64,000 nucleotides of DNA from Telopea speciosissima (taxonomy: Eukaryota > Streptophyta > Magnoliopsida > Proteales > Proteaceae), in NCBI RefSeq assembly GCF_018873765.1, contig NC_057925.1, positions 4,785,568-4,849,567 of the forward strand, read 5' to 3'. The stretch's first letter is position 1. The number at the start of each line of letters is the position of its first letter. Made by a program: the position numbers and the translations under genes. The notes under the pieces are model-generated. The model did not search any database, was not told where the DNA came from, and saw nothing but the letters and a program-made list of their open reading frames with translations. Shown here one piece after another: positions 24,231 through 54,900 of this stretch.

Positions 24231-25983
24231 TTAGCCTCCACCAGATCCGTACTTCTTTCCAAAAACGATCAGCTGCAGCTTGTCATAACCAGCAAGCACA
24301 CCAGCACCGGCAACTGCACGGAGAATGTTCGCTCCTGCACCTTTGAACAAGGACTTGGCTCCCTCATTCTTCAGGATCTGTGAGAATGCATCCAATGAGC
24401 TCTTGTACTTGACAGCTTCACCGGAGGTCATCATCATTCTTCTTCGAACAGTGTCAATTGGGTAGGATGCAAGACCAGCACCATTTGTGATGAGCCAACC
24501 CAATGCAAAGCTAGCAAAGAAACTATCCTGAAATTCATCAAAACAACACAATTTGCACTTTGTAAGCATCGAGTTGGTGAGCGAAAACAAAGTAGAACAA
24601 TACTTAAAGGATACAAAAAATCAACATGAGAGTTTTGACTGTCACAGAAGATAGTGTTATAGTTACAGCATATGGAATCCAGAATTTGTAGCCTCTACAG
24701 TGATGTTAAATAGATGGGTTTTACATCATTAAATGAGAAGCAGTTCAATCCAGTAAGAGGTGCCAGATGCATTGGGAAGTGGGTGTCACTAAAGGTTCTC
24801 CCCCCCATGAGGAAATTCAGTTATTACCACAGATAAATCAATAGCATGCTAATTACCAAACTACGGCTGGTATACAACACAAAATTAGCAGCCCAAGCAG
24901 TCAATGTAGGCATCCAATTTACGAGGCTTCAAGCAACATTCCAAAAATACCATTGCTAAACAATGAAAACCACTACCTTGCTCTCCATCTAAACAAGTCC
25001 AGCAAAAGTTACTAACCTGTAAATTTCCAGTAAGAAGAACTGGCTTCAAAGAATCATACAGTCCAAAGTAGAGACCACGGTAAACAATGATTCCGACACA
25101 TGAAATGTTGAATCCACGGTAAAGGCCAGCAATACCATCTGACTGGAGTGTCTTCCTGTAGACATCAACGAGACCATTGAATTGTCTCTCTCCTCCTTTC
25201 TTTGCTGCCTTGGAATCATTAGCCAGACGGGTTCGAGCATAATCCAGTGAATAGACAAATAGCAGGGATGAAGCACCAGCAGCACCACCAGATGCCAAGT
25301 TGCCTGCAAACCATGTCCAGTATCCATCCTTGTCTTTCTTGAAGTTGAACAACCTCTTGAAGTAATCCTTAAAGGCAAAGTTCAAGGCCTGGAACAAATT
25401 TGAGTTGTTACAAAAAAGCTTTCCAATAAAAAAGATCAAACAGCACTACAGTAAGAACATATCCAACCTGTGTTGGGAAGTAACGGATGACATTAGCAGT
25501 GTTCCCTCTCCACAATGACATCACCCCTTCATCCTTCATTGTCCGGCTAAAACAGTCCCCAATACCTTTGTAAGGCTCAGACAACCGACCAGCCTTGATC
25601 ATTTCATCTTGGTTCTGAATCAAAAGCTTAACACGCTCTATAGGTGCAGCAGCTGTTTTAGATACAGCTGCAGATACTCCACCCATAAGAAAATCAATAG
25701 CAAAGTTGGTGAAGTTTTTCTCCTTGGGGGCTTGAACAAAGATCAGTGAAGTGGCAGAGGAAACCATGGACAGGTCGATGTTCCCATTGCATGACTGCAT
25801 CAATGGGGACTGCAAATTTGAATTGCAATAATTTCCATATGAAAAATGCCTCTGAGACATAGCTGGTCTATATAAACCCCCATGGTGTGCCGGCACATCA
25901 CGGGAAAGACTAGATCCAAGATTGAGCTGTCCAGTAACCTTTTGAAGGACTGTGGGGTGCTGAGGCCGATCACCAGCCATCAT
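24231..25983 (-). CDS. AAC: Mitochondrial ADP/ATP carrier (adenine nucleotide translocator), 394 aa
   Basis: Exchanges cytosolic ADP for matrix ATP across the mitochondrial inner membrane. Coding exons on the minus strand are 25983-25468, 25388-25017 and 24527-24231. Introns have GT...AG ends in phase 0, and the joined frame is 1185 bases. The N-terminal ~85 residues form the plant-specific cleavable extension ([16 protein letters not shown] region). Three carrier repeats follow, each with a signature: [16 protein letters not shown] and [12 protein letters not shown]. The last contains RRRMMM, the diagnostic hexapeptide of ADP/ATP carriers. I place the start at ATG 25983; an in-frame TTG upstream is not needed. 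A 5'UTR intron of about 2.1 kb separates this from the leader exon near 28081-28205. Confidence 0.95.
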
Positions 25984-26129
25984 ATCTTGCAAACTGAAAA
26001 CCCTGAAAACAGTTACTGGTAAGACAAAGCAGACATTTCACAGCTTTTTAACAGTTCAGAAAACTTTTTATCAAAAGAAACAGGGCTATCAGGCATTGCT
26101 CAGGCTATGGAAAACAAAACAAAACAAAA

Positions 26130-28981: not shown

Positions 28982-31900
28982 TTATAACGTAAGGGGGCAA
29001 GGAGAGCTCAAGGCTTCTTTACAAAGATTCAGAAGCCAAGGAGTGGAATGCGGCCAATCTATCGTACTTGCCATAGGCAGGGTCTTCCGGGCTAGGGAAT
29101 GAGCCAATACATTAGCGTCCCCAAGAATAGTAACAAAGTTACAAGCAGAAAAGTGCAAGGTAAGGCTTTCTATATCATGGAGAAAGCCAATAGCACAGAC
29201 AGGAGGAGGGGTAGCCCTCAGGTTGATAAGATCCACAAGCGTCGAGCAGTCAAATTCCACTGTGACATGCGTCAGTCCCAGGTCCTTCGCGAGTATCAAA
29301 CCCAATCTCACAGCCCAGATCTCACAGATTAGGGCCTCCGAGAACTCAGCTGGGCAGGAGGTGGCTAAGAGAAGGTGTCCATGGTGGTTCACTATACTTA
29401 CACCAAGTCCTCCAAAGGTTGAGTCCGTGGGTAAGGCCGCATCACAGTTTATCTTCAAGTAACCCAGAGATGGGAGGGACTAGGTAGCAATGTTTTGGGC
29501 TCGAGAGACGCCTAATGGGTGGGCCCATCTACATTTCCAGAGTGCAGTTGGGAAAGAGATCGATACTCATTATAAGCCCATTGACCCCTGGAGAACACTT
29601 CTTCAGGAGACCAACATTTTTGGTTGAAGCATAGGTCATTTCGGGCTACCCAGAGATACCAGCAGATGTAGAAGAAGATGCTCAGAGTCTCCGCCTTAAG
29701 CTGTTTGGAAGAGAAGCCCAATTTATCCCAGTTGGTGAGGACTTGGCATAAACCATTAGAGTTTGAATTGGGCAAAGTTAGTGTGAGATTGCTGCCAAAC
29801 CAAACCACCTGCGCAAACGGGCACCCCATAAGGATATGGTTGTTAGTTTCAATCTCCTGCCCGCATCTGTGGCAACTTGGATCAACCGAGATGCAGCGTT
29901 TAAATAAACCTTCCCCTGAAGCAAGGCCTTGGGCACAGCATCACCAAATGAAGTTCTTGATTTTCGGGGGGACCTTACCGTGCCAAATTTTCTTCCAAAC
30001 CGAGGGTTGTATATTATCCCACTCATGGGTACGTGATGATGAGGCCTCCATAGCAACCCGAGAATCCCTAAGATTGGAAAGATGGTGATACGCGGATTTC
30101 ACCGTGAATAGGCCATTTCATGATCCTCCCCATACAAGACGATCCTCATGAGCAAATAAACTCAACTTTAGCCCTTTAATTGCCTTGACATCCAACGGAT
30201 GGAACCAACGATCAAGCAGATGAGCATCCCATGCCCGATTATCGTGGTCAATAATATCATGAACCTGAACTAAATCACAGTGAGGTGGCTTGGGATGTTG
30301 GATTCTAAAGTCCTTCGATAGTGGGAGCCAATTACTATGCCAAATGTCGACTTTCTCTCCATTACCCACATGCCATAGTAAGCCGTTGTCCAGCACCTTC
30401 TTGCCTTCCATTATGCTGCGCCAAGCCCATTATGGGTTGTTGCCAATCTGAGCCTGAAGAAAATTAGAGTGGGGGAAGTATATAGCTTTTGTAAACCGAG
30501 CTCAGAGAGAGGTGGGGTTCTCCAGCAGTCGCCAGGCTACCTTCACAAGGAGGGCTCTGTTATGGAGGATCGGATCGCGTAGCCCAATACCCCCTCTCTC
30601 TTTAGACCGACATAGCCTAGTCCAGGAAACCCAGTGCAATTTCCTCTCTTCCCCCTTTTGTCCCCAATAGAAGTCCGAGGTGGCTTTCCGAATGGCATTG
30701 TGATAAGAAACAGGCAAAGAGAAATGAGAAGCTGCATAAGAGGACATCGAGGAAGCCACTGATTTGATCATCACCTCCTGGCCCGAATGAGAGAGCAACT
30801 GTTGTTTCCAACCCTGAACCCTTCTACACGCCTTCTCTCTAATCTCCTTGAATATCTCAGCCTTGGAAACACCAATTTCTGCTGGCAACCCTAGATATTT
30901 CCCTGGCCCATCTGAGTAGGGAATTTTCAAAATCCAAGAGAACCAACGCTTGAGCCTGGATGGGGTGTTGGGACTAAAGGTGACGGTGGATTTCTTCAAG
31001 TTCACCCGCTGGCCACTCGCTTTGCAGTACAGATCTAGGCAATCCTTCAGATGGTTGGTGCAATCAAGCTTAACCTTGGAGAACAGGAGGCAATCATCCG
31101 CGAATAGCAAATGGGTGATAGGAGGAGCACGCTGGCGTATTCTGATGCCTTTGATTAGGTGGTTATCTTCCGCCTCATTAATGATGGAGCTTAGGACCTG
31201 TGAACATAGAATGAACAGAAAGGGAGACAGGGGGTCCCCCTGCCGAATGCCCCTAGTCGGAGAAAAAGAACTTCTTTCCGACCCATTAATAAGCAAGGTG
31301 TAGGAAACAGTGGAAATACATTCAATTATCATATCCACCCATTTTTCACAGAAACCCAATCTCGATAAGGCACTTCTAATGAAAGACCACTCAAGCCTAT
31401 CATAGGCCTTTTGCATGTCAAGTTTCACAGCCATATATCATTTTTTACTTTTCTTCTGATGCTTAATATAGTGATAGATCTCATGGGCTATGAACACATT
31501 ATCTGAAATTAAGCGATCAGGAACAAATGCAGATTGAGTGGGAGAGATGATACCTGGTAAAGTGCCCTTGAGACGATCAGCTAAGATACGGGTAATAACC
31601 TTCACCACCACCCCACATAGGCTAATAGGTCTAAACTGCTCCGCAAGCTCTGGATTCGCCACCTTGGGGATAAGGCATATAAATGTCTTATTAAGCTCCT
31701 TAGGAAGGGTACCCATGGAGAAGAAATCGGAGACCACCTTGAAGATATCAGTCTTCGTGATATTCCAGAATTTGGTGAAGAAAATGGGGGGGAAACCATC
31801 CGGTCCGGGTGCTTTGAGAGGCCCCATAGCCAACAAAGCCGAAGAAACTTCATTTTCAGTGGGGGGGGGCACACAAGGCCACATTAGTCTCCTCCGAGAT

Positions 31901-33186
31901 GATAGGAGAAACTGAAGCTAAAGCATGCTGGAGTGCCGCATTGTCAACCCCTTGGGATTGGACCACTTCACTAAAGTGATTGTGAATCTCAAAAAATACT
32001 TCCTCCTCAGATGTGGTCCACACGCCATCATGACACTTGAGCTTCAAAATGCGGTTATGTTGACGTCGCTGAACAGTTGACACATGAAAAAAGGCAGAAT
32101 TGGTATCACCACTTGTTATCCAATCCATTCGAGCCTTCTGATGCCACAATATTTCTTCTCTAGCGAGCTCTTCCTCGAGGTTACTAAGGAGAGTATTCTC
32201 ATGGTCCTGGCAGTACTCTGAAGGGGGAAGGCTTTGATGCAATTCCAATTGGAGCTTGAGTTTTTGGATGTTGGACTGAACATGTCCAAAGTCCTCGTGA
32301 TTCCACTTGATCAGGGCCTCTTTGCAGTTAGAGGTCTTCTGGAGCCAGAAATGGTGCTCCAAATCATGGGGGTCATGGGACCAAGAGGCAGAAACAACGT
32401 CCTTACAGCGAGGGTGGCGGAGCCACATGGCTTCAAAATGAAATGGACGCGAGCCCGCTGATTTTCCCCCATTAGTAGCCACCAACAAGGGATTGTGATC
32501 AGAGGCGATGGCAGGACAAATAAAAACAGCAGCATTGTCGAACTCCATACACCACGCGGGATTGGAAAAGGCTCAATCCAACTTAACTCTGATATTAGTC
32601 GTGCCCCTTCTCTTGTTGTTCCAAGTAAATATGGGCCCATGTGAACCTAGATCCAAAAGGTTACAGTGGTTAAGGAAGTCCCTAAACGTTTACATATCCC
32701 GATTTCCAGATTTATTCCCTCCAGTCTTCTCATGCCAACTCAAAATTGAGTTGAAATCACCCACACAAAGCCACTTCTCAATTCTACTGGCTCCAAACTG
32801 ACTAATGCGATCCCAAACCGACTAATGCGATCCCAAACCAAATGTCTATGAGCCTTCACTGGGTCCCCATAAATGCAAGATAAGAAGAAACAGTCCCCCT
32901 GATCAGAAATAATTTCTGAATCAATAATTCTATCGTCAGCGAATAGAACCTTCACCTTAATGTGTTGTTGCCACAAAATTGCCAAGCCCCCAGAAGCACC
33001 AGCAGTGTCCACAGAAAAGGACTTGTGGTAGCGCATCTTTCTCTTCAAGGTGCTGATCCGACTAGCCTTGCTCTTGGTTTCAATCAAAAAAAGAAAATCC
33101 GGCCTTTTCAACTTAGAGAGATTTTTTAATGCATACACTGTCCGAGGGTTCCCCAGGCCCTAGAAGTTCCAACTAAGAACCTTCAT
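28982..33186 (-). pseudogene. LINE ORF2 (endonuclease, reverse transcriptase, zf-RVT, RNase H)
   Basis: Starts MKVLSWNF*GLGNPRTVYAL at 33186, where the family has WNCRGLGN, so codon 9 is now TAG. The endonuclease region has FLIETKS, SGGLAILW and ASDHNPLL. A 20-base tandem duplication at 32799-32838 (GACTAATGCGATCCCAAACC twice) causes a frameshift. The RT (31884-30502) has GPLKAPGPDGFPP, KTFICLIPK, QFRPISLC, KLDMQKAYDRLEW and the catalytic LLFADDCLLF; one TGA interrupts it just before KLDMQ. After it come zf-RVT (about 30000-29790; CHRCGQ, ILMGCPFAQVVWFG) and RNase H (29458-28982; NCDAALP, FDCSTLVDLIN, DANVLAHSLARK). It provides target nicking and reverse transcription in live relatives. Confidence 0.9.
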
Positions 33187-33503
33187 AATCCTCCGTGGGA
33201 TTGATAAACCCCAGTGTCCACAGGTCCGAGCGATAAAAAATGTTCTCCATTGCTGTTGGAAGTAGCACCAGCTGATTCCAAGGTAACTTGCAGAGGTAGA
33301 TTGCAGTCTTGCAGTTCTTTCCTTGAATGCCGAGGTCGTTTAGATTTGTTGTATTGCTTAGGAGGAGCAGATAGCTTCAGCACTCTACTAACCTTAAGAT
33401 GAGCCTAGGTACCCTGTAGCGTAGTGGAATTCAGGTTATGGGTTCTCCAGAGCAAACTTGGGCTCTGGACCATAATAGGTTGGGTCTGGGAATGAGTTTG
33501 AAA

Positions 33504-35047
33504 CTAGGTTGGTGTTGGAGATAGATGGGCCGTTTTGGGTTCCATGGTCTGGGCTTTTGGTTGGACCAGGCGAGGAGATAATGGGGCTTGGTCACAGGGA
33601 ACCGGGTGCGTCAGGTGTGCCAGTTGAGGTTGGTTCTGTGAGGGTTCAAAGGTGGATGATAATAATTTTGGATCCAAATTAGAAATGGACACCTCAGCCA
33701 TGTGCTGCAACAAGGAGAGGATGGCTTCAGAATGTTGGAGGCATTTGATTAAAAAATCATGAATGGGGGGGAGGGGGAGGAAAGGTGCTTGGGATTCCAA
33801 TGATTGGTGTGTGGTAGAGTTTGTGGTGATTTGTGAGGCAAGGGAGTACCTGGGGTGGTCCACAAATGATTTGGAGGAGGGTTATGGGGGGACAGGATTG
33901 ACAGGTGGCAGGGCAGAGTAGTACTCATGGTAGGGTTTGTCTGGCATGGAATGGCAGGCTGCTGGTACGGTACCAGCTGGTGACCACGAGGCAGGGCCAT
34001 GGAATCCGATGGGAAGGGTGTTGAAGGATAAAAGGACCCTGCCGTAGCTCCGGTAGGCTGAGCTTTAGGGGTGTGTTCTGTAGATACAATCGAGGGGGAA
34101 TTCTGAGTACTAGAATCTTCATTCTCCTCTTCATTGAAGATGACAATGGCCTTCCGAATAGTACGTTCATCAGGGGAAATGCCTCGTACCTCAGGGCCAC
34201 ATCTGGGTGGGGGAAGCTCCTTGCAGCAACTAGCGCTATAGCACCCGTGGAGATCCCTGTGACGTGAGAAAGCTTCGAACCTCGACGTACACCTCTTATC
34301 GTCATGTCCCATTAACCCACAATAGTAGCAGAACGTAGGTAGTTTCTCATACTTGATGGCCACAGTTGACGAAATGGTTTCGCTTCGTTTGATATTAAGA
34401 ACCAAACGAATGGGTTTTGTAACATCAAGTTCCACCCGAACGCGGATATAAGCAATCTTGGCTCCAAACTAAAAACCATTGACCACCATCACCTTCTTCG
34501 GTGTTCCGAGCTTCCTAGCGATTCTCAGGATGACTTCTGCCGCTTGGAGCTCAAGAGGGATTGCATGTAGTTGCACGCAGAACTCACATCGCTGGAAAAG
34601 CCAGCTTTGGTTGGGGTTCCATTTTTCTAGAAGGAGCAGATTCTCGGAAATTGACCACGGCCCTTCACGGCAGATGTTAACCATATCCATTCGATGTTGG
34701 AAGTGAAATAGGAACTTTCGGTCGTCCAAAGAAGAAACCTCGACTGAGTGCCTCGGATTCCATGCCGGTATAAACGCCTCCATTACCGCTTGCTTATGGA
34801 ATGGTCTACCTTCCATGACGAAACCCACCAGAGATGTCTCCCAGGCCTTGGATAGGTGATGCTGCAATGCTTCGTCGATGATGATATCATCATCCGAATC
34901 CACTGAGTGTTCAGTAGGGGTTGAACTATCTTGTGTGGTATTGGAGTTGTCCATAAGAAGAGCCAAGTCCGGCGATGAGACCGGGGAAGGTGTAGTCTCC
35001 CTAGTCGGCGAGGATAATGGAGATGGTGTATAGTCCCTGGTCAGCAT
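33504..35047 (-). pseudogene. LINE ORF1 (nucleic-acid-binding, DUF4283 and CCHC zinc knuckle)
   Basis: ATG at 35047. The first part (to 34469) contains WETSLVGFVMEGRPF, FHFQHRMDMVNICREGPWSI and LQLHAIPLEL-type text, typical of the DUF4283 region of plant LINE ORF1. An in-frame TAG at 34469-34471 interrupts the text VNGF*FGAKIAYIRVRVELD. Reading resumes in the same frame with the CCHC-type knuckle CYYCGLMGHDDKRC. A further frameshift near the C-run around 33770-33780 joins the Pro/Ser-rich C-terminal part (to 33504). ORF1 proteins bind the element RNA. This copy is broken. Confidence 0.85.
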
Positions 35048-35309
35048 AGATGACGGAGGTAGGGGGTAGATCAGTAGAAGCGCAAAGGGACAGGTGCATG
35101 AAAAAGTAGCAGAACAGTAGAGCGAGGCGCCGGGAAGTTTTCACGCACTCATGGCAGAGAAAATATCACGCACTCATGGCGGAGAAAATATCCATAAGAG
35201 AGTCATTTCAAAGGGGGCCCACACCTTATTTCAGCCCATAAAACCATGTAGATTAAGTCATATCATTTAGGTGTGGGCCCAAAATTAAGAGACAAACCTG
35301 AAACAAAGT

Positions 35310-40126: not shown

Positions 40127-40313
40127 GAATTTTTTTCCTGTCAGGTTCCTTGTCCCGTCCGGTTGTTTGGTTCCTCTCATAGGGGGCGGAAATGACAACT
40201 TAACCACACCCAAGCAGTGTGTTTGGGCAGGGGGTTAGCTCATCATTTTCGCTCCCCTATGAGAGGAACCGGACAACTGTACCGGATAAAGAACCTGAAA
40301 GGATAATGATCCA
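40127..40313. mobile_element. Mutator-type mini-foldback MITE, copy 3 (187 bp) with 9-bp TSD
   Basis: The arms pair around GGTTCCTCTCATAGGGG/CCCCTATGAGAGGAACC, and the core reads GCAGTGTGTTTGGGCAGGGG. TCTATGATC flanks both ends (40118-40126 and 40314-40322), an exact 9-bp duplication. Confidence 0.7.
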
Positions 40314-40570: not shown

Positions 40571-41159
40571 AACGAATTGGAGGTGATAATTATTCGATTA
40601 ACAATTAAAGAGTTTGCGAAGCCTAACCTTTGCTTTAGTCGATCTGATCCCTAGAATCTCATTCACAACCACGCCTCACATCTATGAGTTATTAGTCGGA
40701 GATCAACCCCACAGTTTTAAGAATTGGTACAGATCGATCGTATTGGCTGATCCGTATCGATATTGGCAGTCAATGATGCCAATACTGGATTTGTGATACA
40801 ATACAAGCATAGGACAAAATGGTCAAATCCTTATTGTATTCGTATCTTATGGACGATACGTATCGTTTTTGGAACTGGTCGATACCCAACCCGATTCCTT
40901 GAACTAAGACCCTCATCAAGCCTAATTTCTCTCTACCACCTAGGTTAGTTTCAGGAGTTTTTTTTTTTTTTTTTTTGTAAAAATTTCTAACCTCTGATTG
41001 ATCTACCTATTGGTTGGGTTTGAAAGAGTTTCGTGTTACTTACCTGACTCCAAAGTTCCAGTGGTTGGTTTCCGCATCTTCCTATTGTTGTTATGGGCAT
41101 CGGTAGGTTGAGGAAGAAGACCCCCTTTTTAATTACTATTAAAGACCAGTTAGAATAAA
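40571..41159. other. Intergenic, degenerate 'GTATCGATA' repeat
   Basis: Around 40725-40900 the text GATACGTATCG and GATCCGTATCGATATTGG matches dispersed copies elsewhere in the window. No gene is seen. A T-run lies at 40959-40976. Confidence 0.45.
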
Positions 41160-41522
41160 GAGCAAATTAGTCAGACCTCCCTTGACCTTTCTGATAATTC
41201 AATATTCTCTCCTGTCTTTCTAAGAACTACTCATATCTCCCTTGCTTTTTAAACTGAACTTCACTTAACCCCAGTCCGTTAATTTTTTAAAACAGATAAA
41301 TTTGATAAAATTAAAAAAATTGTCAATTATAAGTATTTAACCTATAGAAAGTTACCCTATTACCCTTACAGTCTTTCCCTTTCTTTCTTCTTCTTCATCA
41401 AATCTCAGAAAATGTTGAAAATAACACCCAACGCCGGAAAACTTATCTAACGCTGCCATTTGAACCACCTTAGCTCATCTGCGCAGAAGAAAAGTAGAAC
41501 TCCAGCCTTGGATATTCCATAA

Positions 41523-42067
41523 ATGGACATCCTCTTCGCTCAGGTCCAGGCTGATCTATGTTCCAATGATGCTCTTCGTCAGTCCAGTACCTTTCTGCAA
41601 GCTTTTCAACAGTCAGCCACCGGCAGAGACATTTCCGTCATTGCAAAATCCGCTTGCGAAGAGATAGCTGCATCTCCAGCCTCCGCTGTTTGCGAAAAGC
41701 TCGCTTTCGTTCTTATCCATTTGACTAGACTCACCGCTGATCTATGGGAGACTGTCTGCACTGGTATCCGCGCCGATCTCCACTTCCCGCATCCAGCTGT
41801 CACTGCCGCTGCTGTGTCCATCCTCGCTGCTATACCTTCCTATCGGCTCGGCATGTTTATTGCCGATTGCAATAAGGGAATCTCCAATTGCTTTGATTCT
41901 TATAGTGATAATCTTCGATATTCAATCACTGAAACGCTTGGATGAATTCTAGCACGGGATGATCTCGTCACTCTGTGCGAGAACAATGTAAATTTGCTCG
42001 ATAGGGTCTCAAATTGGTGGAGAAGGATTGGCCAGAACATGCTTGATCGATCTGATGCAGTTTCGAA
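41523..42067 (+). pseudogene. TPLATE: 5' fragment of TPLATE (endocytic adaptor-complex subunit)
   Basis: The frame starts MDILFAQVQADLCSNDALRQ and continues GRDISVIAKSACEEI, LTADLWETVCTGIRADLHFP, TAAAVSILAAIPSYRLG. This closely matches the N-terminus of TPLATE, the plant endocytosis protein with adaptin-like repeats. After TETLG a TGA stop (41943-41945) replaces the Cys codon of the family. The same frame then goes on: ILARDDLVTLCENNVNLLDR, then WWRRIGQNMLDRSDAVSK. At that point (about 42067) TPLATE sequence ends and a cystatin leader begins. Full TPLATE is over 1000 residues, so about 85% is missing. Amino-acid changes spread along the fragment (e.g. RS to CS, AVEE to ACEE) suggest relaxed selection. 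Confidence 0.9.
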
Positions 42068-42080
42068 AATTAACACAAAA

Positions 42081-42425
42081 ATGAAGATGATGAAGAGCCG
42101 TTCCCAATCTGTTCTTATTCTCTGGTTAGTGGTGGTGGTGGTGTTCTCTCTTCTGGATTCTTCGTCGGCGGCAGGGAGAACGGCACTGGTGGGTGACTGG
42201 AGGCCGATCAAAGACGTGAATGAAACTCACGTCCAAGACATCGCTCAGTTCGCGGTGGGAGAACACAACAAGGAGTACAAGACAGAGTTGAAGTACGATC
42301 GTGTGGTTCAGGGTGATACTCAAGTCATCGCCAGTGCAAATTATCGCCTCAACAATTACCATGCCGTTGTTTATGAGAGGCTATGGGAGGGTTTCAAGAA
42401 TCTCACTTCCTTCAAGCAACTCTAG
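42081..42425 (+). CDS. Phytocystatin-like cysteine-protease inhibitor, atypical, 114 aa, inside a Pack-MULE
   Basis: Cystatins block papain-like proteases in the secretory pathway, vacuole or apoplast. Residues 11-31 are a hydrophobic signal peptide. The mature part has the N-terminal Gly (Gly38 in VGDWRPI), the phytocystatin helix DIAQFAVGEHNK (about 53-64) and the C-terminal ERLWEGFKNLTSFK. Two inhibitory elements are altered. The QxVxG loop is QVIAS (81-85, Gly to Ser), and the PW loop is LW (101-102). About nine residues that normally separate them are missing, so the strand between the loops is short (SANYRLNNYHAVVYERLW). The reading frame is intact and without introns. Upstream it is continuous, in the same frame, with the TPLATE fragment. 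Activity as an inhibitor is doubtful. Confidence 0.8.
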   Translation: MKMMKSRSQSVLILWLVVVVVFSLLDSSSAAGRTALVGDWRPIKDVNETHVQDIAQFAVGEHNKEYKTELKYDRVVQGDTQVIASANYRLNNYHAVVYERLWEGFKNLTSFKQL

Positions 42426-43142
42426 ATTTCAAACCATTTGTAACTGTCTGCAAACCCCAAAAACCCTGTCTCTCTCGCTTATTTTTTGTTTGTGTTTATG
42501 TTTGTAAGAAAGGTACGTGCCTTCCCTTCCCCCACCCCCCATCCCCTTTCTTGATTCTCTGAATAAATTCTGACCTTCAGATTTTAAAGAAGGGAAAATC
42601 CAGGCGTTTACTGTATGTGATGTAACTGGGTCATGGGCCCCTGCAATCAAATGTTGTGAACATCACAAGCTTGAAGAAAAGGTCGGTGACAGTAATGGTG
42701 TATCCGTGAAAATCCATTTTTAGATTTGGATGTCTCTTCCAACAGGCGTAAGGAAATTTTCAATTTGGATTTGGATCTCTCTTCTTCTCCCTCCACTTTT
42801 CTAGTGGATGGGTTTAATCTAGGTTTTGGATCAGATTGATGTCGTTGGTGGGATGGAGTTTGCAGATAGAGGGGTGAGTTGGGGCAGGGAGAACATGGTG
42901 GGGCGGTGGCTGTGGCAGCAGTACCGGCGGTGGCAGTGGCAAGAGGAAGAACAAGAAGAAGAAAAAAAGGGAAAAGTGTAAGGGCATTTTGGTCACAGTA
43001 GGTAATATACTAACATCATTAACGGATTTGGATTAAGTGAAACCAAGTTTGAAAAATAAGAGAGATCTGAATAATTGTCACAAGGGCAGGGGAGATTCCT
43101 TGAATTATCAAAAAAGTCAAGGAAAATCTGAGTAATTTGCTC

Positions 43143-48973: not shown

Positions 48974-51900
48974 CTAATCAATTGTTCCCCGAGTATCTTG
49001 GATGTGCAGAGGCTTTTTGTAAGACTGCAGCAGGAGGGATGAACAGACAACACTTAGTGAAGATGCTGCCATGCAAGCCCCAGCAAGCCATGGAGGCAAC
49101 CGGATTCCAGTGAAAGGGAACAAAATACCAGCAGCAATTGGCATGCCAAGCACATTGTAACCCAGAGCCCATGCATAGTTGAGTCGGATGCGATTAAGAG
49201 TCTTTCTGGAGAGATCAATGGCAGTTACTACATCTTCCAAGTTGCTCTTGATGAGAACTATGTCAGCAGCTTCAATAGCAACATTAGTGCCAGCACCAAT
49301 TGCCATGCCAACATCAGCGGCAACTAAGGCGGGCGAATCGTTGATTCCATCCCCCACCATTGCAACAGCTAACCCTTTCATCTGGCATGAAATTTAATTT
49401 TATAGTCAGAAACACATTACTAGTATCCAATATTCAAATTCATATCTGTTCTATTAACACTACAACCACATGCTATTCACACAGTATTATAATTTACCAA
49501 GCCCATAATCAACAAAGATAAATAACCTATTGATAAATTTAGCCTCAGACCCAGTAAACTGTCATAAAGTCATGTTTTGTTGATGGGTTTTAACCTATCA
49601 TCTTTTTGAAGTGATACTAGATCATCCTTTGTTCCAAAGGACGAACCAAAGATTTTAGCTAGAAACCAAGGGAAAGTCCCAAACAAGTAAGACTTGATTG
49701 TAATTTAAACTAGGACATTATACTCGGACACTGCCTGAGCTGGCATTGGCCTCCTATAAACGCATACACAGTCACACATGCACTGCAGCATGAACAAAGT
49801 GCATCTGCATCACTCTCTATCTATCTAACATTTAAAATTGCAGGCAGTTGAGCTTGTCTAATTCCCTCAATTTTTGCATGACCAATGAGATCTTCCCAAA
49901 TAAGACACCAAACCAAAACCTCAGGTGCTCAAAACTAGAGAACAAAACAGGTGGGCAACTTTAACAGCTATTTAGTGAGTCTTACAGCCAGAACTCATAG
50001 TTTCATCGTTGCATCTTTACTACACACTATCCATGCCAAATTCAAAATCAATAAGATAAAATCTCTCCCCAGAAACACTTAGCAAGTTGTTATGCTAGTT
50101 AGATGAACTGCTCTCCGTATAATGCAACTTGTTGGTTGATGTGCTTCAACATTTTCATGTCAGATCTAATTTACATCATAATTTTAGTTTGAATGAAAAA
50201 ACTAATCCACATTACCTACATAAATTCATTAATCATGTGGTTTACAGGTCAATATTTTGCTTAGAAGAAACCAAGGGTAAAGCAATTAAATTGGTCAATA
50301 CACCCAATCAAAGTGATGAGTAGTTCATATGAGATTGTGTGGATTAAGTTTCTGAGCATAAATAATTACCTGCAACTCTTTGATCTTATTGGCTTTTCCT
50401 ATTGGATCCGTCTCAGCAAAAACATTAGTAATTCCAACCTCCTTTGCTATGGCCGTTGCTGTAGCCCAGTTGTCACCAGTCACCATGATGCTTGAGATGT
50501 TCATTGACTGAAGGAAAGATACAACACGCTCTGCCTCTGGTTTCACAGGATCTGTCACAGCAAAAGCCCCAGCAACCTTCCCATCAATGGCAACTAGCAC
50601 ACAAGTGCGTGCTAGCTGCTCAGTTTCTGAGATGTAATCTTCAACCTCAGGTCCCAGTTGAACATTATAGGACACCATGAGCTTCCTATTCCCAACCAAC
50701 ACTAGTTTCCCACCAACATTCCCACTCACTCCAGCTCCCAGGTGTACCTCAAAGTCCCTCGAATCGGTTACATGTTCAGTGTAGGACCCATATTGCTGAC
50801 GCAGTTTCTTAGCATACTTCACTACAGCCTTTGCTATAGGGTGCTCACTGTATGCCTGCCACCAAAGATTGTGAACAATATTTAGTGAAGTCAACCCTCT
50901 GTTCTGCTCTTCCTCATAGCAAAACAAGCAACCTGCACAAAATTAAGAACTATATATCAGTGCCTACCTCTGCTGCAGCAGCCACATCACAAAACTCCTG
51001 GATAGGCACATTGGAAAAAAGCATTGAACCAACTACCATTGGCTTTCCCACTGTCAGGGTCCCTGTCTTGTCAAAGACCACAGTATTCACCTGCAGCTTC
51101 AAGGATAACAACTGTTAATAACTGAAGCAAAACTAATTATTAATTTTTGAGACATTAAAAAAGATTTCCTTTTTAGCTCAACTATTTATGAAAAACACAC
51201 AGAAGTCTTTCCATGCCTTGTATGGAGAAGCAAGGAAATGCTTCTACAATGTTGTATGATCCAACATTCCACTAAAAATACTCGAAGAAAATTTTACAAG
51301 ACAGCTATAAGAGCAGCGATGCTGCATGGAGCTAAATGCTCGGCACTGGGCAGGAAATAAATAACAGATCAGGATTAACGCACAATGGTGCTCTATGGGT
51401 CAGCTCAATCATCGGGAGAGATGAGTGGCAAAACAAGAAAAGACAAAATGACAAATGACGAGCATCAAGGTAATTGAAGAGTGGCACCAAGAGGTGACAC
51501 GTTGAGGGAAGTCATTTAGGAAGATTCTGATTTAATAAGCAGGTGAGGAGTGATGTGGTGTAGATTAGATAAGTTAAAAGAACAGAGTAGGTTGACCCAT
51601 TTAGCAGGTGTAAGGCTTTTCGAGTTGAGTTTCCTTGCCTTATGTGCATTTTCAAGTGCATTTCCACCTTTGATGAGGACCCCTTGAGAAGCTCCTTTTC
51701 CTGTAGCAACCATGACAGCCGTTGGGGTTGCTAGTCCCAAAGCACATGGGCAAGCGACCACCAGTACTGAAATACCAAACTGAAGTGCCAGCTCAAAGCC
51801 ATCCATGGCTTTTGGAATCCAATGTTTAGGGTAAAGACCAGCTTCTCCAGGAATGAACCAGCCCAACCACGTAAGGAATGCTGCAATAACAACCTGCAAT

Positions 51901-54900
51901 ATGGTGGAGCAAATAAATGATGGATTTATCATTGACCAGCAGCCATAGCAGACATTAAGGAAATTTTACATCATGAGGAACAGAATTAACAAATTAAAAA
52001 AATAAATAAATAAAGCACCTCGAAGCTAAAAGCACGAAAGGTTTATTTAGAGAGAGAGAGAGAGAGAGATGGACCATACAGCAACTGCAGTACCGTATAA
52101 CCTCCTAAATGTAACGGATAAATTGTAAAATACCTTCTGGTTGTCAAAACTTCATTGAACTGTTCTGCAATTGAAGAAATGAAAGTAAACTTTTACTTAT
52201 ACTTTAAAGGCATATTATTAAAATCAAACTCAGGTAACCTTTGGACTGGTGGCATTTAGGATTGCCCATCTTGTTGAGTACCGGGAGACCAATTATTTGA
52301 AACAAAATACCAAACTGGTTTCCAAAAATAATATGTGCCTCTATATGCACATTCAATCCCCCAACAAAATGGTAATAATATCTGGAATAATCAGAGTTTG
52401 ACCATTTCACAAATATGTGAACCCCTCCAACCAATTGCAAGCTGCCTCCCCTCTTCACACCTCCCTCCCACCCCCACCCCAAAAAAAAAAAAAAACTTTT
52501 ATATTGAGGAGCACCAGATATCTTGTGGAATGTCACACGGCTGACCAGCCATTTTGTTTTCACCCGATTCAGTACCTGTTTTTCCACCACCACCGTTTTC
52601 TTTCTTTGTGTCAAGTTTAATTTACCTTAAGCTCCGCTCATTTCATCAGATTATATTTTCCTGGAAAGTCATTTCATGATTATTAAAGTTGTGTATTTCT
52701 TTGTCATTTGTCTTATTTATAATTATGAAGCATTTTCAGACATGTTTGGGTGAGTAAAGAATCCAACTATATGGAAGTGTCCTCCATGGGTGACAACTGT
52801 TTGATTGACCAAGATGGCATCACCTTTTTTTTGGGGGGGGGGGGGGGGAAGTCTTGCAAAACGTACAGAAAATATTGCATTTTAGTAAAATATTTTCTGG
52901 CTTTTTCATTCCCAAAACAATTTTCTTTTACTTATCAATTCCTGCAAAATATTTTCTGTTAAAAGTTAAAACAAACAAAATCTAAAGGAAAAGCAGATAA
53001 TATGCTCAGTAAGACCTGCAAAATTGATCAAACAAGATTGCAAGTGATTCAAGAAGATTTGAAAGTGACAAAAATTATAGACGAACAAAGAACTTACAGC
53101 AGGAACAAAGAACTTAGAAATTTGATCTGCCAGTTTCTGAACCGGTGCCCTGGCAAGCTGAGCTACTTCCACTAGCTGGACTATTTGGGACAATGCAGTC
53201 TCTGACCCAACATGAGTAGCCTTAACTAGTAAGCATCCATTCTCGTTCATGGTTCCACCAATAACCTGTTCATGACATATTTGAGCATTTATAAATTTCA
53301 ATCAAGTTTAGAAGGTCAAAAGGCAGAAAAAAGAAAGATAAGAGGAACAAGATAAAGCAAAAATGATGAAACCTTGTCTCCTGCCCTCTTAGCGATGGGT
53401 CTTGCTTCTCCAGTGATCATACTCTCATTCACATGACTCTGACCCCTTATAACAATACCATCAACAGGAACCTTTGCCCCAGGGACAATCTTGATCACAT
53501 CATTCCTTTGTATCAGCTGAGTGCTTATTTCCATTTCTGATATCACATCGCCATCCCCATTCAAAGTTAAAAGATAGGCTGTATCAGGTGCCAGGTCTGT
53601 CAGTTTTGCCAAAGCATCTGACGTCTTCCCCTTAGCCACAACCTCCAAATATTTTCCTAAGAGAATAAAAGATATTAACATAGCACTAGTCTCAAAAAAA
53701 TCCTGCCCTTGAAATGAATCCGAAGTCAGCGCTTTTATAACAATGTATACAGAGTAGAAATAAGCTGCGTTGGTGCCCAATGCAACCAGAACATCCATAT
53801 TAGCAGAACCTCGTTTCAACGCATGGTAGGAACCCAGATAAAACCTGAATCAATAATAGATAGAGCTACATTACCATTAAGTTGCAGATTGTGTGTACAA
53901 ACAAAAGAAACAATCTACTAAATAAAATGATTGAAGTATAATGCAATACCTTCGGCCTATAATGAATTGTACAGGCGTGCAAAGAACCAATCTCAGAAGC
54001 ATCCCAACAGTAAGCATGTTGTAGAGCTTGCAATTCAACCAGTTACCATAAGGAGGAATCATTGGAAGGACCATGGAGAATACAAATACTGGAAATGAAA
54101 ATAGACAGCTCCAAAGAAACAGGTTTCTATATGCCTGAATTTCATACTGACGCTCTGTTTCTCTTTGTCTTGGGGGAGTATATAAGCTCGCATTGTAGAA
54201 GTTGGGCCCATGGCCAGCTTCTTGTACGAAATGTATTAGAGACCTCGGACCAGTGAGATTGGGGTCATAACTAATAGTCCCCTTGTTACCCACTGGGTCT
54301 ATCACCACATGATTCACACCTTCTACTGCCTCAAGACAGGATTGAATAATGGAAACATCATCTGGGGAACTGATTCCGTATAGATGTAGATGCACTTTGT
54401 TTATATCATCTCCAGAGCTGATAAGATCAGCTCCAAATCCAGCATCTTCAATGGCATGGATAAGGTGGTCAGCATCAGTGAGGTTTGGATCAAAGTGAAT
54501 CTTTGCCTCTTCAAGGGCTAAGCCCACCACTGCTGTTTTCACTCCATCAACTGCAAGGATGGCACGCTCAACAGACTCAGAGCAGCTGGTGCATGCCATT
54601 CCTTTGATTCGGATTCGACATACTGCTATATCTTGTTCAGGGAAATCATCAACTTGATAGCCCATGCCTTCTATCATTTCTTTAACAGCTTTTGCCTGAA
54701 GTAGAGCACCAATGTAAATGTTTCTAATCCCAGGAAGTAGATAAAAATAGAATGGGTGGAAAGTATGGAAACAGAACTAGTTCAGAAAATACCCCTACTT
54801 TGATATATTATATTTTAAAAAACATAATAAATTGCAAGATGTATAGAGATTGAGGAAGGGGCAGATATACAGATCGAAAATCTGAAAGTAGTGTTATATT

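Follow-up and report, generated by a model that had tools for sequence, protein, structure and literature searches.

A TPLATE-cystatin gene fusion in Telopea speciosissima, very probably captured, transposed and decayed within a Pack-MULE

A 903-base stretch of the Telopea speciosissima genome reads in a single frame from the start codon of TPLATE to the stop codon of a cystatin. How did two host genes come to be joined, and does the fusion work as a gene? We analysed the surrounding 64,000 nucleotides (C10:4785568-4849567, referred to as the window; positions without a contig name are counted in it) and searched the whole genome (823 Mb, 1,287 contigs). Translation of 41523-42425 agreed with the initial annotation of a TPLATE-cystatin chimera broken by one TGA. 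The frame opens at the TPLATE start, meets an in-frame TGA at codon 141 (41943-41945) and ends with a terminal stop at 42423-42425. The half after the TGA matched the Pfam families SQAPI (1.7e-23) and Cystatin (1.4e-07), and the half before it matched no Pfam family. We consider it very probable that a Pack-MULE captured parts of the two genes, that these were fused and transposed as a unit, and that both copies of the fusion have since decayed. The features are summarized in Table 1.

Table 1 Features of the chimeric element and its relatives (window positions unless a locus is given).
Feature	Position	Strand	Basis
Whole Pack-MULE, 1,983 bp	41160..43142	+	Ends from inverted repeats and from relatives with 9-bp TSDs
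Left terminal inverted repeat	41160..41396	+	At least 33 of at least 38 other element places match up to 41391-41404 only
Captured sequence upstream of TPLATE ATG, 126 nt	41397..41522	+	Alignment to L011 starts at 41397
Captured TPLATE exon-1 fragment, to codon 183, end placed to within the 5-base overlap	41523..42071	+	C3 TPLATE match, TPLATE-named relatives
In-frame TGA	41943..41945	+	Private to the window copy among aligned sequences; C3 gene, C8 gene and C5 copy encode an amino acid here
Fusion point, 5 bases AAATT in both donors (microhomology)	42067..42071	+	Donor sequences beside the junction
Captured cystatin coding sequence, altered, 114 codons and stop	42081..42425	+	Pfam SQAPI/Cystatin; donor on C9 is P0001
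Captured 3' flank of the cystatin gene	42426..42713	+	Match to L013 in two pieces, reaching 42713
Right arm with right terminal inverted repeat	42799..43142	+	Common to C1 and C11 elements
Sister elements, TPLATE leader and other interior of ~760 bases	L016:2917-4561, L017:3939-5574, L018:3853-5469		

The donors, which the initial annotation proposed to seek in the same genome, were found there: the TPLATE donor lies on contig C3 and the cystatin donor on C9. The C3 TPLATE exon, which has an open frame of ~400 codons, was identical to window positions 41397-42071 at 634 of 675 bases (93.9%) in a gapless alignment. The element holds ~182 TPLATE codons and 126 nt upstream of them. The identification of the 5' gene as TPLATE takes its name from annotated relatives such as P0042, P0046 and P0060; a PDB search with this part gave no match. 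The C9 cystatin gene matched positions 42064-42546 at 81.1% identity, in an alignment with many gap positions, and 42576-42713 at 89.2%. With gaps omitted, 23 of the 345 bases of the cystatin coding sequence differ from the donor. The donor's protein, P0001 (cysteine proteinase inhibitor 1 of T. speciosissima), covers 100% of the 114-residue query at 79% identity, and a PDB search with the cystatin part returned 10 chains.

The five bases at the fusion point are present in both donors, which fits template switching. Both donor stretches are open and join in phase; the fusion frame was therefore probably open when it formed. A genome search with the 903-base stretch gave 11 matches, namely the stretch itself, TPLATE genes on C3 and C8, the cystatin on C9, two pieces on C5, and fragments on C7, C8, C11 and, twice, C1. 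Together the two C5 pieces, which lie ~12 kb apart, make up a further TPLATE-cystatin chimera joined at the same junction; they match the window copy at 85.5% and 87.2% identity. This second element has a target-site duplication (TSD) of 9/9 bases, AAAATGTTA, at its ends. No similarity was found between the flanks of the two copies when 3,000 bases on each side of the C10 copy were compared with 2,857 and 2,670 bases at C5. The TSD and the unrelated flanks indicate that the fused unit moved by transposition, with the reservation that the right repeat at C5 lacks most of its last ~30 bases and its end was placed where the duplication starts. The same two observations led us to reject segmental duplication as the source of the pair. 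The divergence between the window and C5 copies was similar in both halves, as expected of one unit (60 of 610 bases for TPLATE with 62 upstream bases, 29 of 343 for the cystatin coding sequence).

The two copies carry independent lesions, and an open fusion frame was found in neither. The window copy has the TGA, and the C5 copy is broken by stops, two frameshifts and a ~12-kb insertion (C5:29104883-29116846, ends in L009 and L010). This insert has a terminal poly-A and a 19-base duplication, AAACGCTTGGATGCATTCT, and on these features it resembles a LINE-type insertion. Since both copies found with the fusion are broken, the locus looks like an ordinary gene capture that has decayed.

The chimera had been placed inside a Pack-MULE, an assignment borne out by long terminal inverted repeats, two captured host-gene fragments and 9-bp TSDs in relatives, with none at the window copy. 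The terminal repeats of the 41160-43142 element are identical at 152 of 188 aligned bases (41159-41400 against 42951-43140) and fall within the length range of Pack-MULE repeats, ~100-500 bp according to PMC4858842. Fragments of identifiable host genes, TPLATE on C3 and the cystatin on C9, lie between them. A TSD of 8-11 bp was not found at the window copy; 4 of 9 bases agree at its ends and at best 5 of 9 at nearby offsets, which is a point against the main reading, in which this copy's own arrival by simple transposition is presumed. No transposase was recognised in Pfam among the three element frames of at least 120 aa.

A broken LINE-like element (30502-35140) precedes the Pack-MULE and P-type metal ATPase exons (50325-54776) follow it; no gene across the insertion was seen among the ten translated frames of the window that were judged. 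The LINE-like element, on the minus strand, has reverse transcriptase, zinc knuckle and DUF4283 matches in Pfam, and the ATPase exons, also on the minus strand, have HMA, E1-E2 ATPase and hydrolase domains. A mitochondrial carrier domain is encoded at 25408-26037 on the minus strand. Just left of the element, 40133-40306 holds a 60-nt inverted repeat, 80% complementary with its arms 54 nt apart, which is possibly a small inverted-repeat element.

Related copies with the same terminal repeats, which had been suggested for a search in sister species, are present in the T. speciosissima genome itself, in at least 38 other places. This count is a lower bound from a search with the left end, which gave 42 matches with 40 of 205 candidates scored; the count does not include the window copy, the C3 gene or two matches that are second pieces. 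At least five of these places carry TPLATE (C5, two on C1, C7 and C11), and at least 33 end at 41391-41404. Thirty loci, the window copy and the C3 gene included, were examined; both ends were identified in 13, and 17 were not scorable. Ten of the 13 two-ended loci had a TSD of 9/9, one of 8/9 and two of 6/9, taking the best within 3 bases of the ends. The flanks and TSDs of the two C1 copies are alike by eye; these copies are one duplicated insertion and account for two of the ten 9/9 loci.

The C1 and C11 elements share the arms of the window element and the TPLATE leader to coding base 137, followed by a different interior of ~760 bases, bounded in L016 by the inverted pair GACCTTGTTCTTCACCTC / GAGGTGAAGAACAAGGTC. 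The C7 copy holds TPLATE to about coding base 252, and its right end was looked for and not found. Two changes absent from the C3 and C8 TPLATE genes are common to all six element copies, which fits a single TPLATE capture. The cystatin was found in two element copies. A further TPLATE fragment (L014:4462-4892) matched no element arms. Of four changes that set the window and C5 copies apart from both genes, it carries two and lacks two, and it may be either a remnant or a separate copy.

We then compared the changes in each half with a neutral expectation, taken from a model with the same base changes. We assigned changes in TPLATE by parsimony, using the C3 gene and the C5 copy, and left out two three-state sites. 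The window lineage has 19 changes (2 synonymous, 16 nonsynonymous, 1 stop) against 4.9 synonymous expected. This is a neutral pattern, which the initial annotation had named, for both halves, as a refutation. The C5 lineage has 36 (12 synonymous, 21 nonsynonymous, 3 stops) against 10.6 synonymous expected. Private changes of the C8 TPLATE gene are 29 synonymous and 7 nonsynonymous, against 2 and 14, including the stop, in the window copy (Fisher p = 5e-6). From these change counts, with the C8 gene as control, no purifying selection on the TPLATE part was seen in the window lineage. The window and C5 copies share 13 coding changes relative to C3, 10 of them synonymous. With one change upstream of the ATG these make 14, and 10 of the 14 agree with the C8 gene; they are thus mostly the C3 gene's own changes.

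For the cystatin, changes were counted on the coding sequence alone. The window lineage has 7 changes, a small count, of which 1 is synonymous and 6 are nonsynonymous, with 1.6 synonymous expected under neutrality. The C5 lineage has 22 (10 synonymous, 9 nonsynonymous, 3 stops; 8.0 synonymous expected) and a 2-base deletion. The neutral-like pattern is also seen in the cystatin of the window lineage, on 7 changes only, and these counts may be compatible with weak constraint. Sixteen changes relative to C9 are common to both copies, 11 synonymous and 5 nonsynonymous (4.8 synonymous expected, P = 0.0007). These 16 changes combine what happened in the donor gene with what happened in the fusion ancestor, so the ancestral cystatin part may have been under constraint.

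The cystatin motifs were compared with P0001. QVVAG has become QVIAS and PW has become LW (G89S and P115L in donor numbering, both in the window lineage), a single stretch of 10 residues is missing, and so are 4 close to the start. We take the two substituted sites, also in view of an alignment to oryzacystatin, to be the QxVxG loop and the second-hairpin PW of phytocystatins. Neither motif of an active phytocystatin is intact in the window copy. The C5 copy misses 2 of the 10 codons, and both copies lack the 4 codons near the cystatin start. The proposed secreted inhibitor is not supported: besides the 10 missing codons, the glycine of QxVxG and the proline of PW are gone, and the leader would be internal in a fusion.

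Nor was the captured promoter that had been suggested supported: ahead of the TPLATE ATG the capture spans only 126 nt, and the cystatin box was left behind. The cystatin capture begins ~14 nt before the donor ATG, and the TATA-like CTATAAAAACG of the donor lies outside it, which eliminates a captured cystatin promoter. No match to TATA[AT]A was found in 41159-42090; by eye, the left repeat holds a looser TATAAG (41328-41333). The first frame of more than 12 codons that a transcript from that repeat would meet is the 140-codon TPLATE frame. Reinitiation at the cystatin is made less likely by three out-of-frame ATGs (41959, 41986 and 42055) and an in-frame one (42039) between the TGA and the cystatin ATG. 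Protein searches limited in length range gave 47 hits with coverage of at most 61%, none over both halves, and further searches gave 9 hits (limited length range) and 6 hits (63-199 aa), none from the window locus. An annotated fusion elsewhere was thus rejected, as no hit in these length-limited searches spans both halves or equals the window locus.

Several other readings of the locus were weighed. The cystatin open frame (42039 or 42081 to 42425) could be translated from an element-initiated transcript into a small secreted protein. The frame of 114 codons is open, encodes a hydrophobic leader and has Pfam matches, the C5 copy is more broken than the window copy, TATAAG is present in the left repeat, and the changes shared by both copies lean synonymous. 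We nevertheless regard this reading as improbable: the window-lineage changes are as neutrally expected, the motif residues and 10 codons are gone, several ATGs precede the frame including that of the 140-codon TPLATE frame, and none of the 6 protein hits came from this locus. We give equally little credence to a broader account, in which the repeat family kept the TPLATE leader as a constant 5' module (six copies: C10, C5, C7, two on C1, C11) with differing partners (cystatin in two, the other stretch in three), the TPLATE-cystatin fusion was once open and perhaps expressed and constrained, and a small cystatin of altered sequence is still made from the window copy.

Readthrough of the stop codon into a TPLATE-cystatin fusion protein is very improbable. 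The frame is continuous on either side of the TGA, but the TPLATE half is unconstrained in the window lineage, the cystatin leader would be internal, and the base after the TGA differs from what we take to be the known leaky context. TPLATE is an essential gene, and strong silencing of it would therefore be selected against; this makes it doubtful, at a level close to that of the secreted protein and slightly below it, that the element is a source of small RNAs acting on the TPLATE or cystatin donor genes. Such RNAs are reported for captured sequences in maize according to PMC13317346, and 26 of the 36 changes in the TPLATE coding part at C5 are C to T or G to A, as methylated DNA would give (9 of 19 in the window copy). 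A junction made by assembly, which had been named as a possible refutation, or a chance in-frame run can practically be dismissed, since a second copy with the identical junction lies on a separate contig, C5, within unrelated flanks, and we found no support for either.

The preferred reading, capture followed by transposition and decay, would run as follows. A non-autonomous Mutator-like element would have acquired the 5' end of TPLATE from the gene that today lies on C3, and one branch of it the cystatin gene from C9. Their joining at the 5-base microhomology would be most simply explained by a template switch in the course of repair or replication. The join would be in frame by chance (one in three), and the frame was probably open at birth. 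The fused element would then have transposed as a unit, giving the copies on C10 and C5. The window copy presumably decayed through the TGA, missense changes at the inhibitory motifs and the 10-codon loss, and the C5 copy through stops, two frameshifts and the 12-kb insertion ending in poly-A. On these sequence features, neither copy would retain a function.

We compared the element with known systems. Pack-MULEs are common, with more than 3,000 given for rice (PMC4858842) and 1,447 for sacred lotus, which belongs to the same order, Proteales (PMC4053705). Like these, the window element has long terminal repeats, a length of ~2 kb, unlinked host-gene fragments, no recognised transposase and relatives with 9-bp TSDs; unlike them, the window copy has no TSD. 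In most Oryza species, according to PMC4858842, two or more parental genes contributed to 5-10% of the putative genes derived from MULEs; Ka/Ks lies significantly below 1 in ~4% of these putative genes, and some expression is seen in 20-40%. The window fusion resembles the chimeric ones among them in joining two parental genes in one frame, but its frame is broken, and neither an annotated gene nor constraint in the window lineage was found. Animal Pack-TIRs formed by template switching also have few-base microhomology at breakpoints (median 2 bp) and multicopy spread by transposition, according to PMC8277862. They differ in that their breakpoints, as described there, are between element and filler, whereas the window microhomology is between two captured genes. 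Searches of the open-licence literature for TPLATE with Pack-MULE, cystatin with Pack-MULE, and TPLATE with cystatin and fusion gave no match. Within that literature, the TPLATE-cystatin pairing is new, and the element is of an already known kind, decayed.

The window element adds no new mechanism. It provides a clean case, in which probable donors, fusion point, sister copy and less complete family members are found in one genome, of how an in-frame fusion of two genes would form at a short microhomology, be spread by transposition and then decay.
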